A DNA stretch of 64,000 nucleotides from Myxococcus eversor (GTDB taxonomy: Bacteria > Myxococcota > Myxococcia > Myxococcales > Myxococcaceae), in the NCBI RefSeq assembly GCF_010894455.1, contig NZ_JAAIXY010000012.1:186001-250000 (forward strand). Reading direction: 5' to 3'. Positions 22,218 through 28,680 of the stretch are shown here, piece by piece. Within the stretch, counting starts at the first letter, position 1, and every line of letters starts with the position of its first letter. The notes below the pieces were generated by a model. That model worked only from the letters and a program-made list of their open reading frames with translations, made no database searches and was not told where the DNA came from. The position numbers and the translations under genes are program-made.

Positions 22218-23324
22218 CTACTCGCCCGACCGCTGGCGATTGAGCCGGTCGTAGTGCCGGTAGCCCAGCTTGTCGAGCGCGTGCGACGGCGCGAGGCCGA
22301 TGTCGACCAGCGTCTTGATGTCATACGTGCCCGTGAGGACAGGGGGCGCGTAGCTCCGGATCGCCGTGGGCGTGCGGAACTTCTCCAGCGGGTAGAGGAC
22401 CTTGCTGGTGTGGACGTGGATGAAGTGCGCGGCGGACTGGCGCTGCCAGCCGGAGACGCCCGGCGCGGTGATGACGTGGGGCGTGGCGAGGAACGTGCCG
22501 CCCGTGAGGATCTCCAACTGCTGGCCCACCTGCGCCACGATGCAGCCCGCGGGCGCGGTGCCTCGCACCTTGCGGCCCTGCGGCTCCTCGGGCGTCGCGC
22601 GCGTGCGCAGATACAGGCCGCTCTTGTCATCGGGGCTCGGGGCCGGCTTCCCGTCGGGGCCGAGGAACCGCCCACCGGGCAGCAGCGTCAGGAGGTTGAA
22701 GTCCGTGTGCTCCTCGCCCCAGACGATGTCCGTGTTCACCTGCTCCGGCTTGAGCGACAGGTACTGGAGCGCGCGGGTGATGTGAGGGGCCTTCTCGCAG
22801 AGGGACGTGAAGGTGTCCTCCGCGAGCCCCAGCGCCATGGCCGAGCCGCGCAGCAACTGGAGGCCCGCCTCGTGGAGCGAGCGGCCCAGCGTCATCAGGC
22901 CTTCCTGGAAGTACGGCGGCGCATCCGGCGGCCACACGTTCTCCGGATACAGCTCCGGGAACTCCATCGCCGCCACCTCGTCGTTGGGGTAGGGCGCGAC
23001 GAAGTAGCACTCCTTGAAGTCCGGCTGGCCGTTGCCGGCGACGGCGACCTCCGTGTTCGGCGGCGTCCAGCCGCGCTGGTACCAGAGGTCGGCGCGGCCG
23101 TAGGGCTTCTTCGCCTCGGCGGGACGCGCGATGAAGGCGGCGAAGGCGTCGTAGTAGCGGTGGAGCGCCTGCGTGTCGACACCGTGGTTCTTGATGTAGA
23201 CGAGACCGAAGACACCAAATGCCTCGCGCAGCGCAGTCGCGGCGCGCTCGATGCGAGTGGCATCTCCCGAGGCGAGGTCCGCGAGGTCGACAGTCGGAAT
23301 ATTCAGGGAAGAGGTCTCGGCCAT
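22218..23324 (-). CDS. 2-oxoglutarate/Fe(II)-dependent oxygenase, isopenicillin N synthase-like
   Basis: This 368-residue protein belongs to the isopenicillin N synthase/DIOX superfamily. The N-terminal DIOX_N region has NIPTVDLADLAS and the typical REAFGVFGLVYIKNHGV. The Fe(II) facial triad is supplied by HTD in EEHTDFNLLT and a distal His in FLATPHVI. The co-substrate motif RxS is RQSAAHF. The substrate is unknown; bacterial members hydroxylate or oxidise small molecules. The start ATG at 23324 has an AGGGGAA site. It lies downstream of, and on the same strand as, the formate dehydrogenase operon, but 125 bases separate them, so cotranscription is uncertain. Confidence 0.88.
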   Translation of the reverse strand: MAETSSLNIPTVDLADLASGDATRIERAATALREAFGVFGLVYIKNHGVDTQALHRYYDAFAAFIARPAEAKKPYGRADLWYQRGWTPPNTEVAVAGNGQPDFKECYFVAPYPNDEVAAMEFPELYPENVWPPDAPPYFQEGLMTLGRSLHEAGLQLLRGSAMALGLAEDTFTSLCEKAPHITRALQYLSLKPEQVNTDIVWGEEHTDFNLLTLLPGGRFLGPDGKPAPSPDDKSGLYLRTRATPEEPQGRKVRGTAPAGCIVAQVGQQLEILTGGTFLATPHVITAPGVSGWQRQSAAHFIHVHTSKVLYPLEKFRTPTAIRSYAPPVLTGTYDIKTLVDIGLAPSHALDKLGYRHYDRLNRQRSGE

Positions 23325-23449
23325 GGTTCCCCTAGGTGTATCGCTCCTCGCGCCCAAAGGGGAAGGCCTCGTGGGCCCCCTCCCTGAGTGCAAATCCCGC
23401 GTTCCTTCCCAGGGGCGGGGCACTCCCGGAGTCGGGCCGGGTGGGCCGT

Positions 23450-24610
23450 TCAGCGCACCACGGGCAGGGGGAAGCTGAACGGCTTGCCGTCCGACGCCAC
23501 GGCATGCCCGGGCACCACCTCGGCGGCGCCGTGGCCCCGGCGCTGGGGCCTGAAGGTGGCCTGCGGGTCTCGGGCGGACGCCTTGCCCCCATGGAAGACG
23601 GCGAAGCGGGCCGTCACCGCGCCCACCGTGGTCAGCAGGTCCGCCGCCACCTGCTTCCAGCGCCGCCGCCCCGGGAGCGCATCCACCAGCAACCCCGCGA
23701 CGGAACAGGCGCGAGAGGCCTTCCACAGTGTCCCCGACACGCCCTCGTCCAGGGGCCGGGCGACCTCTGGAGCGCGTCGGGCGTCGTGCTCCATCGCATA
23801 CCCCATGGCCAGCTCCGCCACCTTGCCCGCCAGCCGGTAGGGGCGCAGCACCCCCGCCTCACGCGGTGTGTGGGGGAGGAGCGACAGCAGGCTGCCCGCG
23901 CTCGCGGTCGCCGAGGCCATGAAGAACAGGGGCAGGGTGCGCCGGGTCGCCTGCCACAGCGGCACCGCCGTGTTGTTCAACAGCACGGCCGTGTAGCCCG
24001 CGAGCGGCATCCCCAGCAGCGCTGCCGAGCAACCCGACACCTTCCCCACCGCGCCGAGCACCCCGTGCGAACGTCCCAGCACCAGGCCCACCGTGTTCAG
24101 CCCGCCCGACAGCGCCAGCACCCAGGAGCCGATGCTCATGGGCGAGGTGGGTCGGAACACGCGCAGCATGTTGAGGAAGCGCTCGGGTCGCCCGAGGTCG
24201 GCGATCAACAAGCCCGCGCTCAGCATGTCGCCCACCGTCCCGAGCTGACGGCACCGCCTCGCGAGCGGATTCAACTCCTTCTCGCCGAGCACATCGATGA
24301 CCAGCCCCATGAGGCTCGCGGCGCCCGCCACTCCTCCCACGAAGAGATAGGTGGGGATGGTGGCAATCCAGACCGGCTGCTTGATGGCGGGGAGCCCGTG
24401 GTAGCTGGGTGAGTCGGCCGAAGCCACTCCGGAGCGAGAGGGAATCGACGACGACACCGTGTGCGCGGGGTTCGCCCCGTCCAGGTCCGTCACGCGCTGC
24501 TGCGCGCCCTCGCCCAGCAGTGTCCCCAGCGCTGGGTTCACGTTGCGCCCATCGCCGCGCTGCTGGAGCTTGTCGAGGAACGAAGGCTCATCCTTCCCGG
24601 ACGAACTCAT
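23450..24610 (-). CDS. NrfD/PsrC-type membrane subunit of formate dehydrogenase
   Basis: This 386-residue polytopic protein has eight or nine hydrophobic helices beginning at residue 83 (IPTYLFVGGVAGAASLMGLVIDV), after a polar N-terminal arm of about 80 residues. The helix 1 sequence and the loop LLIADLGRPERFLNMLRVFRPTSPMSIGSWVL are hallmarks of the NrfD/PsrC family, which exchanges electrons with the quinone pool without haem b. It is the third gene of the formate dehydrogenase operon. Its ATG overlaps the stop of the Fe-S subunit gene by four bases (ATGA), which indicates translational coupling. It replaces the cytochrome b subunit (FdnI) found in E. coli. Confidence 0.9.
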   Translation of the reverse strand: MSSSGKDEPSFLDKLQQRGDGRNVNPALGTLLGEGAQQRVTDLDGANPAHTVSSSIPSRSGVASADSPSYHGLPAIKQPVWIATIPTYLFVGGVAGAASLMGLVIDVLGEKELNPLARRCRQLGTVGDMLSAGLLIADLGRPERFLNMLRVFRPTSPMSIGSWVLALSGGLNTVGLVLGRSHGVLGAVGKVSGCSAALLGMPLAGYTAVLLNNTAVPLWQATRRTLPLFFMASATASAGSLLSLLPHTPREAGVLRPYRLAGKVAELAMGYAMEHDARRAPEVARPLDEGVSGTLWKASRACSVAGLLVDALPGRRRWKQVAADLLTTVGAVTARFAVFHGGKASARDPQATFRPQRRGHGAAEVVPGHAVASDGKPFSFPLPVVR

Positions 24611-25404
24611 GGGCTCCCCCGTCGACCGAACAGCACCGCGCCCACGGCCACCGCGGCCATGCCGAGCGCGCCCAGGGCCACGGCGCTCCAGGCCTCCTTC
24701 GCCTTCATCGTCGGAACGACGGGGTCGGGCGGCAGGTTGTAGACCTCCGGCTTGTCCACCAGCAGGAAGAAGGCGTTGAGCCCGCCCGTCCCGGGTTGGT
24801 TCGCCGCGTCCTTGCCGTAGAGATACGCGCTGATGATGCCCTGGTCGTGCAGCTCGCGGACCCGGTTCTCCGCGCGCTCATGCAGCACGTCCAGGTCCCC
24901 GTAGGCGATGGACTCCGTGGGACACGCCTTCGCGCACGCGGGAGTCATGCCGTCGCCCAACCGGTCGTAGCAGAGCGTGCACTTCCAGGCGCGCCCGTCA
25001 TCCGGACGTCGGTCGATGACTCCGAAGGGACACGCCGTCACGCAGTAGCCGCAGCCGTTGCAGACATCCGGCTGCACGTAGACGGTATCGAACTCGGTGC
25101 GGACGATGGCGCCCGTGGGACAGGCCTCCAGGCACCCGGCCCGCTGACAGTGCTTGCAGACGTCCGACACCATCAACCAGGAGAAGTCCCCCACGCCCGT
25201 GGCGTGTCCCGGCAGGGGCACCGGCCGCTCCACGAAGGCCACGTGTCGCCACGTCGAGCAGCCGAGGTCCCCAGTCTGGTCATAGGACATCCCCGTGAAG
25301 TGGAAGCCGTCGTCGGGGAGCTGGTTCCATTGCTTGCAAGCCACCTCGCACGCCTTGCAGCCGATGCACGTCGTCGAGTCGGTGAAGAAACCCTTGCGGC
25401 TCAT
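24607..25404 (-). CDS. Formate dehydrogenase Fe-S subunit (four 4Fe-4S, C-terminal anchor)
   Basis: This 265-residue ferredoxin-like electron-transfer subunit has four cysteine clusters: CIGCKACEVAC, CKHCQRAGCLEACP, CNGCGYCVTACPFG, and CTLCYDR with CAKACP. They form the wire between the molybdopterin subunit and the membrane protein. A single hydrophobic helix near the C-terminus (WSAVALGALGMAAVAVGAVLFG) anchors it, as in FdnH. The gene starts three bases after the catalytic subunit stop and overlaps the next gene by four bases, so the three genes are one operon. Confidence 0.94.
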   Translation of the reverse strand: MSRKGFFTDSTTCIGCKACEVACKQWNQLPDDGFHFTGMSYDQTGDLGCSTWRHVAFVERPVPLPGHATGVGDFSWLMVSDVCKHCQRAGCLEACPTGAIVRTEFDTVYVQPDVCNGCGYCVTACPFGVIDRRPDDGRAWKCTLCYDRLGDGMTPACAKACPTESIAYGDLDVLHERAENRVRELHDQGIISAYLYGKDAANQPGTGGLNAFFLLVDKPEVYNLPPDPVVPTMKAKEAWSAVALGALGMAAVAVGAVLFGRRGSP

Positions 25405-25407
25405 GGG

Positions 25408-28400
25408 CTATCGCTCCTCGTCCTTTTTCTTCTCCTGCCACGGCACATGGTCGACCTCACCCGCGCGCGAGCTGTCGCGTCGGTGGAGCTCCAGCCCCTC
25501 GGGCAGCGCGGCTTGGGTGGCGCCCGAGGCGGCGCGCGCGCGGGTGGCCTGACGTCCCTCGACGACGTCGCAGGTGAGGGCCTTGGACTCCTGGATGTCC
25601 ACGTTGGGGTCGGCGACCAGCGGGAGCAGCTCGTTCGCGCCGTCTCCTCGGATGCGCCCCGTCACGCCCCAATGGTAGGGGATGCCCACCTGATGCACGG
25701 ACGTGCCGTTGAGCTTCAGCGGCCTCAGGCGCTCGGTGACGAGCACCCGGCACTCCAGGTCTCCTCGCGCGGTGCGCAGCGTCGCCCAGCCGCCGTTGCT
25801 CAGGCCTCGCTCGCGGGCCAGCTCCGGTGACACCTCGCAGAACTGCTCCGGTTGCAGCTCGCTCAGCCACGACAACCAGCGGCTCATGCCTCCCGCCGTG
25901 TGGTGCTCCGTGAGGCGGTAGGTGGTGAGGATGAACGGATAGCGCGGGTCTCCCCAGGCGCGGTGATAGGGGTTGCCTCGCCGTGGCCACTCCAGGCGCG
26001 TCGGGTTGCACTGCTGCCCGTAGAGCGCGTTCTTCACGGGCGACTCCATGGGCTCGTAGTGAGCGGGCAGCGGACCATCCATCATCCCGCCAGGCGCGTA
26101 GAGCCACGCCTTGCCGTCGGCCTGCATGATGAACGGGTTGTCGCCCGCGAGCGCCTCCACGCCCGAGGCACCCGGAGGAGGGCGGTAGTCCGGTGGCAGG
26201 TCCACGATGAAGTCCGGCACGTCCTCGCCAGTCCACCGGCGCCGGGCATCGTCCCACCAGACGTACTTCTTGCGCTCACCCCAGGGCCGTCCCTCTGGGT
26301 CCGCCGACGCGCGGTTGTAGAGGATGCGTCGGTTGGCGGGCCAGGCCCAGCCCCACTCGGGCGCCACCCAGGTCTGCTCGTGTCCGGGCTTGCGACGCGC
26401 GGCCTGGTTGACGCCGTCCGCGTAGGCCCCGGAGTAGATCCAACAGCCGCTCGCGGTGGTGCCGTCGTCCTTCAAGGCGGTGAAGCCGCTCACGGGCTTC
26501 CCATCCGCGACGGTGTAGCCGTTGATCTCCCGGAGGACGGCCTCGGCGCTCGGCTCGTCGTGCATGCCCTTCGTGGGGTAGTCCCACGTCAGCTCGCGGA
26601 GGGCCTGGTCCTTCGTCTCGCGCGAGTCGGCGTACAGCGCCTTCAGCCGGCGGCCCAGGTGGAACATGAAGTGGAGCTCGCTGCGCACGTCCTCGCGCGG
26701 CTCCACCGCGGCGTGGTGCCACTGGAGCATCCGCTGCGTGTTGGTGAAGGAGCCGTCCTTCTCCGTGTGCGCGGCGGCGGGGAAGAAGAAGACCTCCGTG
26801 CGGATGTCTTCGGTCTTCACGTCACCGCGCTGGATTTCGGGGGCGGTGCGCCAGAACTCCGCCGTCTCGATGAGCGTGAAGTCGCGCACCACCAGCCAGT
26901 CGAGCTGACGCAAGCCCTTGCGCTGGAGCGCTCCATTCATGGAGCCCACCGCCGGGTTCTCACCCATGACGAAGTAGCCCCGCACGCGGCCGTCGGCCAT
27001 GTCCGCCACCGTCTGCATGTGCGAGTGGTTGCCGGTGAGGCGGGGCAGGTGACGGAAGCCGTACTCGTTCTCCCGCGTCGCCGCGTCACCGAACCACGCC
27101 TTCAACAGCGAGACGACGTACTTGGGGAAGTTGCTCCACCAGCCCGTGCCGGAGGTGTGGGCCTTCAGGTAGTCGTCCAGGCTCGAGGACGGCCGGGCGC
27201 TCGGCATCGGCAGATAGCCGGGCAGCAGGTTGAAGAGGGTGGGGATGTCCGTGGAGCCCTGGATGGACGAGTGCCCGCGCAGCGCGAGGATGCCGCCCCC
27301 CGGCCTCCCGATGTTGCCGAGCAGGAGCTGGAGGATGGTCGCGGTGCGGATGTACTGCACGCCCACCGAGTGCTGCGTCCACCCCACCGCGTAACAGAGC
27401 GCCGTGGTGCGCTCTCGTCCGGAGTTCGCGCAGAGCGCCTCCGCGACCTTCAGGAACTGCTCCTCGGGAACACCGCACACCTTCGCGACGATGGCGGGCG
27501 TGTAGCGCTGGAAGTGGCGACGAAGGACCTGGAAGACGCAGTGCGGATGCTGGAGCGTGAAATCCTTGGGGGCCTCGGTGATTCGCGCGGAATGGGACTC
27601 GCCCTCACCGGCGCCTGGCTCCGCGAACAGCTCCTTGTGGCCCGCGGCGGGCGTGGGGCCCTGGATGCCCTCGTAACCCCACGAGGTGACGTCGTACTTG
27701 TTCTCCTCGGGCAGGAAGCCGCTGAAGAGGCCGTCCAGGTCCTCGGTGTCCTGGAAGTCCTCCCGGAGGAGGTTGGCCGCGTTGGTGTAGTGGGTGACGT
27801 ATTCCTTGAAGTAGCGCTCGTGCTCCAGGACGTAGCGCACCAGCCCACCCAGGAACGCGATGTCCGAGCCGACGCGGATGGGAACGTGCTGGTTCGCCAT
27901 CGCGCTCGTGCGCGTGAAGCGCGGGTCCACGTGGATGATGGTCGCACCCCGGGCCTTGGCCTCCATCACCCACTGGAAACCCACCGGGTGACACTCGGCC
28001 ATGTTGGAACCCTGGATGAGGATGCAGTCAGAGTTCCGCAGGTCCTGCTGAAAGGTCGTGGCCCCGCCACGCCCGAGCGTGATGCCCAGACCGGGCACCG
28101 TGGACGAATGTCATATTCGAGCCTGGTTCTCCACCTGGATGATTCCCAGCGAGGTGAAGAGCTTCTTGATGAGGTAGTTCTCCTCGTTGTCGAGCGTCGC
28201 GCCGCCCAGGTGGGCGATGCCCAGCGTGCGCTGGACGCTCAGCCCGTTGACGTCGGTGTCCTCCCACGTCGTGTCGCGCGTGTGCTTCACGCGCTCGGCC
28301 ACCATCTCCATGGCCCGCTCGAGCGGGAGGCGCTCCCACTCCGTGCCTCCCGGTCGACGATAGAGGACGTGCTGGACGCGGTGGGTGCCGGTGACGAGCT

Positions 28401-28680
28401 GGAACGTCGCGGAGCCCTTGGGGCACAGCCGTCCGCGTGACACCGGCGAGTCCGTGTCGCCCTCGATGTCGATGATGCGCTCGTCCTTGACGTAGATGTC
28501 CTGGCCGCAGCCGACGGCGCAGTAGGGACAGACGGATTTGACGACGCGGTCCGCGCGGGCCGTGCGCGACTGAAGCCCGCGGCTGCGCTCGGTCATCGCC
28601 GTCTCGCCCAGCGCGGTGAGGTCCCCGCGCAGGAGCTGCCGGAGGACGGGCCAGCGCGACAGCAGGTCGAGGACTCCCAC
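25408..28680 (-). CDS. Selenocysteine-containing formate dehydrogenase catalytic subunit
   Basis: This is a molybdopterin (bis-MGD) formate dehydrogenase of 1090 residues if the UGA at 28113-28111 is read as selenocysteine (residue 190). The context is NQARI-U-HSSTVPGLG, and family members carry Sec or Cys exactly there. The frame is continuous on both sides, so this is recoding, not a frameshift. An N-terminal 4Fe-4S motif is CPYCAVGCGQ, with RLCPKGS after it. The molybdopterin regions include GSNMAECHPVGFQWVMEAK, and a C-terminal MGD-binding domain contains LTTYRLTEHHTAGGMSRW. No twin-arginine signal is seen, which suggests a cytoplasmic active site. The GTG at 28680 is chosen for its GGGAGGT site five bases upstream. 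Confidence 0.9.
28083..28113 (-). promoter_or_regulatory. Selenocysteine UGA and bacterial SECIS hairpin
   Basis: On the minus strand the UGA (28113-28111) is followed 13 bases later by the hairpin UGCCC-GGUCU-GGGCA (28097-28083), a perfect 5-bp stem with a five-base loop. The apical GGUCU matches the SelB-binding loop of the E. coli fdhF element, and the loop lies 18 bases after the UGA, within the working range for bacterial SECIS elements. Confidence 0.88.

Follow-up and report, generated by a model that had tools for sequence, protein, structure and literature searches.

An in-frame UGA codon in a formate dehydrogenase gene of Myxococcus is almost certainly read as selenocysteine

A formate dehydrogenase frame interrupted by a single UGA

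The 64,000-nucleotide stretch of Myxococcus eversor DNA analysed here (the window) carries on its minus strand a formate dehydrogenase (FDH) frame that is interrupted by a UGA codon; is this codon a stop, or is it read as selenocysteine (Sec)? Knowledge of Sec formate dehydrogenases goes back to the 1980s, and as these enzymes are textbook material, the novelty of a further one is low. Anaeromyxobacter dehalogenans is a myxobacterium. Three FdhA selenoproteins are tabulated for this species in PMC1794560, and Zinoni 1986 stands in the reference list of PMC13188914; our literature search on myxobacterial selenoproteins returned nothing on the subject, its sole match concerning Aneurinibacillus.

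Translation of the minus-strand frame from 28680 to 25408 gave one internal stop, a TGA at codon 190 (28113–28111) in the motif NQARI-U-H, in agreement with the original prediction that UGA alone interrupts this frame. Read through, the gene (fdhA, the putative alpha subunit) encodes 1090 residues including Sec190, starts with GTG after GGGAGG, and stops with TAG. It had also been predicted that the gene would be split into pieces of 189 and 897 residues; the first figure holds when counted from the GTG at 28680 (the ORF list gives 217 aa from an earlier GTG), and the second does not, as the ORF list has 896 aa for the downstream piece, counted from its first start codon. A plain ORF caller thus splits one enzyme into two, and the annotation is corrected here.

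The protein scores over the curated cut-offs of NCBIfam NF041513 (formate_DH_Act; 1870.7 bits, cut-off 1400), which covers residues 7–1050 in one stretch across the UGA, and of TIGR01553 (995.1 bits, cut-off 814.2), and it matches the Pfam families Molybdopterin, Molybdop_Fe4S4, and Molydop_binding. The name of NF041513 suggests an actinobacterial type, yet the host is a myxobacterium. The best solved matches are the formate dehydrogenase chains 1h0h and 1kqf. PDB 1h0h, which we take to be the alpha subunit of a Desulfovibrio-type formate dehydrogenase, is the closest (E 1.4e-236) and has its X aligned with U190, but the match omits residues 343–371, and its partner subunits presumably differ from those encoded beside the Myxococcus gene. 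The UGA was claimed to lie where FdnG/FdhF-type enzymes carry Sec, and the comparison bears this out: in E. coli, UGA is likewise followed by H, after NQARV in fdnG, the same motif, or CCARV in fdhF. Both the profile scores across the UGA and the place of this codon at the active-site Sec position (1h0h, E. coli fdnG) put fdhA among the Sec formate dehydrogenase alpha subunits. By eye, no twin-arginine motif was seen in the N-terminus of fdhA, and the enzyme may lie on the cytoplasmic side. ARAGORN also called a tRNA-Pro at window positions 27630–27720 (plus strand), antisense within fdhA, which is probably a false positive.

fdhA heads a gene row with a beta and an NrfD-like subunit

Downstream of fdhA on the same strand are fdhB (24607–25404, 265 residues), encoding an iron-sulphur beta subunit whose start lies 3 bases past the alpha stop, and a gene for an NrfD-like membrane subunit (23450–24610, 386 residues) that overlaps the beta stop (ATGA). 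The ferredoxin-like FdhB matches Fer4_11 in Pfam and TIGR01582 at E 1.2e-53 (182 bits, under the cut-off of 334.7), and the third gene matches only the NrfD families PF03916 and PF14589 (Pfam, E <= 0.001). Among the matches listed, and with six loci counted twice as second copies of the same record, an fdhB relative was found in 87 of the 100 long-enough loci (downstream in 12/12 with position given) and an NrfD-like relative in 55 of 66 (downstream in 11/11). The FDH-N complex is defined by a cytochrome b gamma subunit of the FdnI type, FdnI of E. coli being a cytochrome b; the Myxococcus row differs from it in that its third gene is NrfD-like in Pfam rather than FdnI-like. We also asked whether a dioxygenase-like ORF farther downstream (22218–23726) belongs to the operon and decided against it, as it has matches in just 4 of the 110 loci listed (4/63 long enough): it is whole and in place in L026, partial in L027, where it lies 7.2 kb from the Sec codon and is cut by the locus end, and represented by short weak matches in L029 and L030.

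The UGA codon is conserved in relatives

The Sec codon was read in 110 loci, comprising 30 whole-genome loci of the host's family and the best 80 of 592 matches; the relatives are therefore unevenly sampled. A raw motif scan gave 146 rows (TGA 95, TAG 41, TGC 9, and TGT 1), unrelated matches included, from which we kept 110 with ENQAR, one per locus and with every locus represented. Six of these loci duplicate a record already counted, leaving 104 distinct loci, in which the codon is UGA in 88, UAG in nine, and UGC in seven (80 of the 110 loci being the best of 592). Every one of the 110 loci, with the same sampling, has a stop or a Cys codon at the position of residue 190. All 30 whole-genome family loci, the window's own included, hold UGA, which answers in favour of the proposed reading the call to compare this codon in sister species. 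The closest named relative among the matches listed is Myxococcus llanfair... AM401 (94% identity).

FDH was found at E <= 1e-50 in 41 of the 96 genomes of the host's family. Residue 190 is covered by 43 of the 46 family match rows, and TGA occurs in every one of these; of the three rows that do not cover it, two are without a stop and one has a TAG. Forty-two of the 43 hold a single TGA, and an FDH relative at G035:C1:865511-868762 has two in-frame TGA codons. A quick-method tree was built from 102 of the 110 rows, leaving aside the short L037 and L082 and the six copies. A single branch of this tree sets the TGC rows apart, and two changes are required to account for the TAG rows. One locus from a record titled Comamonas sp. 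KCTC 72670 (L028) falls inside the Myxococcus rows of this tree; its stretch is identical to L114 in a genome placed in the window's genus (G066), and the organism name in the record title looks wrong.

A hairpin past the UGA co-varies at synonymous sites

A predicted bacterial SECIS hairpin occupies 28081–28099 on the minus strand. Its core, UGCCC-GGUCU-GGGCA, was located at 28097–28083, 13 bases past the UGA, exactly where it had been described, and the predicted fold has 7 pairs over 28099–28081 and a 5-base apical loop, GGUCU, starting 18 bases past the UGA. In E. coli, AGUCU (fdnG) or GGUCU (fdhF) starts at the same distance, but the stems predicted for E. coli contain a one-base bulge and close on loops of 3 or 4 bases, whereas the 7 pairs in Myxococcus are unbroken. 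Criteria given in PMC13188914 for bacterial SECIS elements include a loop of 3–9 nt with G in its first two positions, a stem of 4–16 bp, a distance of 16–37 nt from the UGA, and an MFE of at most −7.5 kcal/mol; the hairpin falls within all of them, with its 5-nt GGUCU loop, 7 pairs, 18 nt, and −13.6 kcal/mol (42-nt stretch).

Folding of the single sequence was dropped as proof of a SECIS, since its energy is no better than that of shuffles (MFE z −0.32; 66 of 200 shuffles fold equally well). Among 2,000 synonymous versions, 12.6% fold equally well, and when 100,000 synonymous resamplings were drawn, 1,328 combined the 7 pairs with the GGUCU loop. A search of the window at Rfam gathering scores reached no family. 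The whole model of SECIS_3 (RF01989) is matched at 28116–28055 with E 0.0011, but its 24.5 bits fall short of the 63-bit gathering score; it is the sole Rfam family at E <= 1 within the 141 bases from 28020 to 28160. The evidence for a SECIS from this one sequence is moderate; the comparison across relatives, described below, we regard as decisive for the predicted element.

In the 97 distinct stop-codon rows among the matches listed, the stem keeps all 7 pairs in 60 and 6 of them in 37, whereas in the seven TGC (Cys) rows listed it is broken, with 3 to 6 of 7 pairs left. The co-varying pair joins the third base of codon +5 (Val) to that of codon +9 (Gly), both synonymous sites, and it is kept in 96 of the 97 rows (CG 37, GC 32, TA 18, TG 9; the remaining row has GG). 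Such compensatory change in stop-codon relatives is a mark of a bacterial SECIS. We used as controls third-base pairs in the gene that lie 2 to 6 codons apart and vary on both sides. The pairing excess over independence is 0.52 for the hairpin (103 stop-codon rows listed, six copies included); the largest among 303 control pairs is 0.166, and none of them paired as often (0/303). With the rows reduced to 71 unique 45-base stretches, 70 are paired, the excess is 0.456, and none of 410 controls reaches it (largest 0.193). T is the last base of the loop codon in all 103 stop-codon rows listed and in two of the seven Cys rows, whereas the other Gly codons of the stop-codon genes end in T in 6.9% of cases. 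These loop-codon, 0.52-excess, and 303-control figures count the six duplicate loci twice, and the 97-row figures count each locus once. In this clean example, synonymous-site co-variation verifies the SECIS, and the UAG and Cys versions serve as natural controls.

UAG and Cys versions of the codon

The nine TAG loci among the matches listed (L068, L069, L077, L081, L084, L090, L093, L095, and L099) are all labelled Geodermatophilaceae, a family for which UAG at the Sec codon of FDH has been reported earlier (PMC5330540). Each of the nine genomes has a match to the tRNA-Sec family with anticodon CTA, which ARAGORN labels Pyl. The genome of L099 (G104, Geodermatophilus sp. LHW52908) has two tRNA-Sec matches (L137 and L149), one UCA and one CUA; transposase-like ORFs were seen by eye near the UCA copy, which may stem from contamination or be mobile. 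Three Cys-type genomes were examined, from the seven loci; two are without an over-cut-off tRNA-Sec, and the genome of L078 has one with anticodon TCA.

The host genome encodes the Sec machinery

The host genome (11.4 Mb, 124 contigs) was searched for the genes of Sec decoding. Matches over cut-off were found for selA (563.9 bits, contig C48), selD (389.9 bits, C10), and tRNA-Sec (65.5 bits, gathering score 47, C80; anticodon TCA by ARAGORN). The selB match on C124 reaches 301.9 bits, and a C-terminal piece of the same 675-codon frame raises the total to 325 bits (cut-off 242.25). With selA, selB, selD, and tRNA-Sec(UCA) in one genome, the host carries the Sec-decoding trait; the absence of selB and tRNA-Sec was the main ground on which the original prediction was to be abandoned, and the prediction has therefore passed this test. 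Weaker selB, selD, and tRNA-Sec matches occur in all 14 control genomes, and we therefore counted only matches over cut-off, which number two for selB, one for selA, two for selD, and five for tRNA-Sec among the 14. In the 41 FDH-bearing genomes of the host's family, selA was found in all 41 and selB in 40 (E <= 1e-60); the one with FDH and no selB match (G082) is 82% complete.

We weighed three other accounts of the UGA. In the first, near-cognate suppression would place another amino acid at the UGA, and the hairpin would merely slow the ribosome. This is very improbable, as every part of Sec insertion is present in the genome, all nine UAG genomes have a CUA match to the tRNA-Sec family (one also a UCA match), and all 110 loci listed keep a stop or Cys at the site. 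The second takes the UGA as a true stop, in a pseudogene or between two separate proteins, as the two ORFs of the plain ORF list might be read. It is less probable again: both sides of the UGA are conserved at full length in relatives, NF041513 runs across the codon, the stem co-varies at synonymous positions, and the sel genes are present. A sequencing or assembly error for UGC is the least probable, to the point of being negligible, because UGA is conserved in relatives (88 of the 104 distinct loci listed, the 30 whole-genome family loci among them) and the hairpin is kept alongside UGA but decays in the UGC versions; Cys homologues do occur (UGC in seven of those 104).

The internal UGA with its hairpin is almost certainly read as Sec, judging from sequence comparison, and the predicted decoding is supported by the sel genes, the UGA in relatives, the co-variation of the hairpin, and GGUCU 18 bases past the UGA. 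With very high confidence, we propose that fdhA specifies the catalytic subunit of a formate dehydrogenase that is linked to the membrane and contains molybdenum or tungsten, with Sec inserted at UGA190 through a SelB-binding hairpin. In this proposal, SelA would produce Sec-tRNA-Sec using selenophosphate that SelD supplies, and because the predicted hairpin 13 bases past UGA190 would bind SelB carrying Sec-tRNA-Sec, the ribosome would put Sec at the active-site position rather than terminate. The enzyme would oxidise formate to CO2, and the electrons would pass through the iron-sulphur clusters of FdhB to the NrfD-like membrane subunit and probably on to the quinone pool. The locus as a whole is well supported as a real, ordinary Sec formate dehydrogenase.

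Other selenoprotein genes in the host's family

Contig C58 of the host genome carries a SelW-like (Rdx) gene (L153, 441563–441769, minus strand) whose motif CNSUGY contains an in-frame UGA; it is likely a second selenoprotein gene of this genome. A SelW-like match holding TGA was found in 74 of the 96 family genomes (the TGA position was read in four). At E <= 1e-60, 88 of the 96 have selA and 85 have selB, both commoner than FDH (41); selD is present in 91, with a TGA anywhere within the match in 29 (the G027 match is partial).

We then counted three clients of the Sec machinery, namely FDH at E <= 1e-50, a SelW-like UGA match, and TGA in the selD match. The 84 family genomes with both selA and selB divide into 40 with FDH, 10 with no FDH and TGA in selD, 28 with the SelW-like UGA match only, and six with none of the three; because of these six, further clients probably exist. 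Six genomes (G008, G009, G047, G082, G083, and G093) have one of the three clients and are missing a selA or selB match. According to a 2006 paper (PMC1794560), every selenoproteome includes FdhA or Sec-SelD, and the 28 of 84 genomes with the SelW-like match only go against this rule as worded there. On the three client types counted, the data suggest that clients other than FDH hold the Sec trait. Tentatively, and with some doubt on our part, it may be mainly the small SelW-like selenoprotein, and not formate dehydrogenase, that maintains the Sec machinery in the host's family; if so, the window's FDH would use, as an optional client, a trait that something else maintains.
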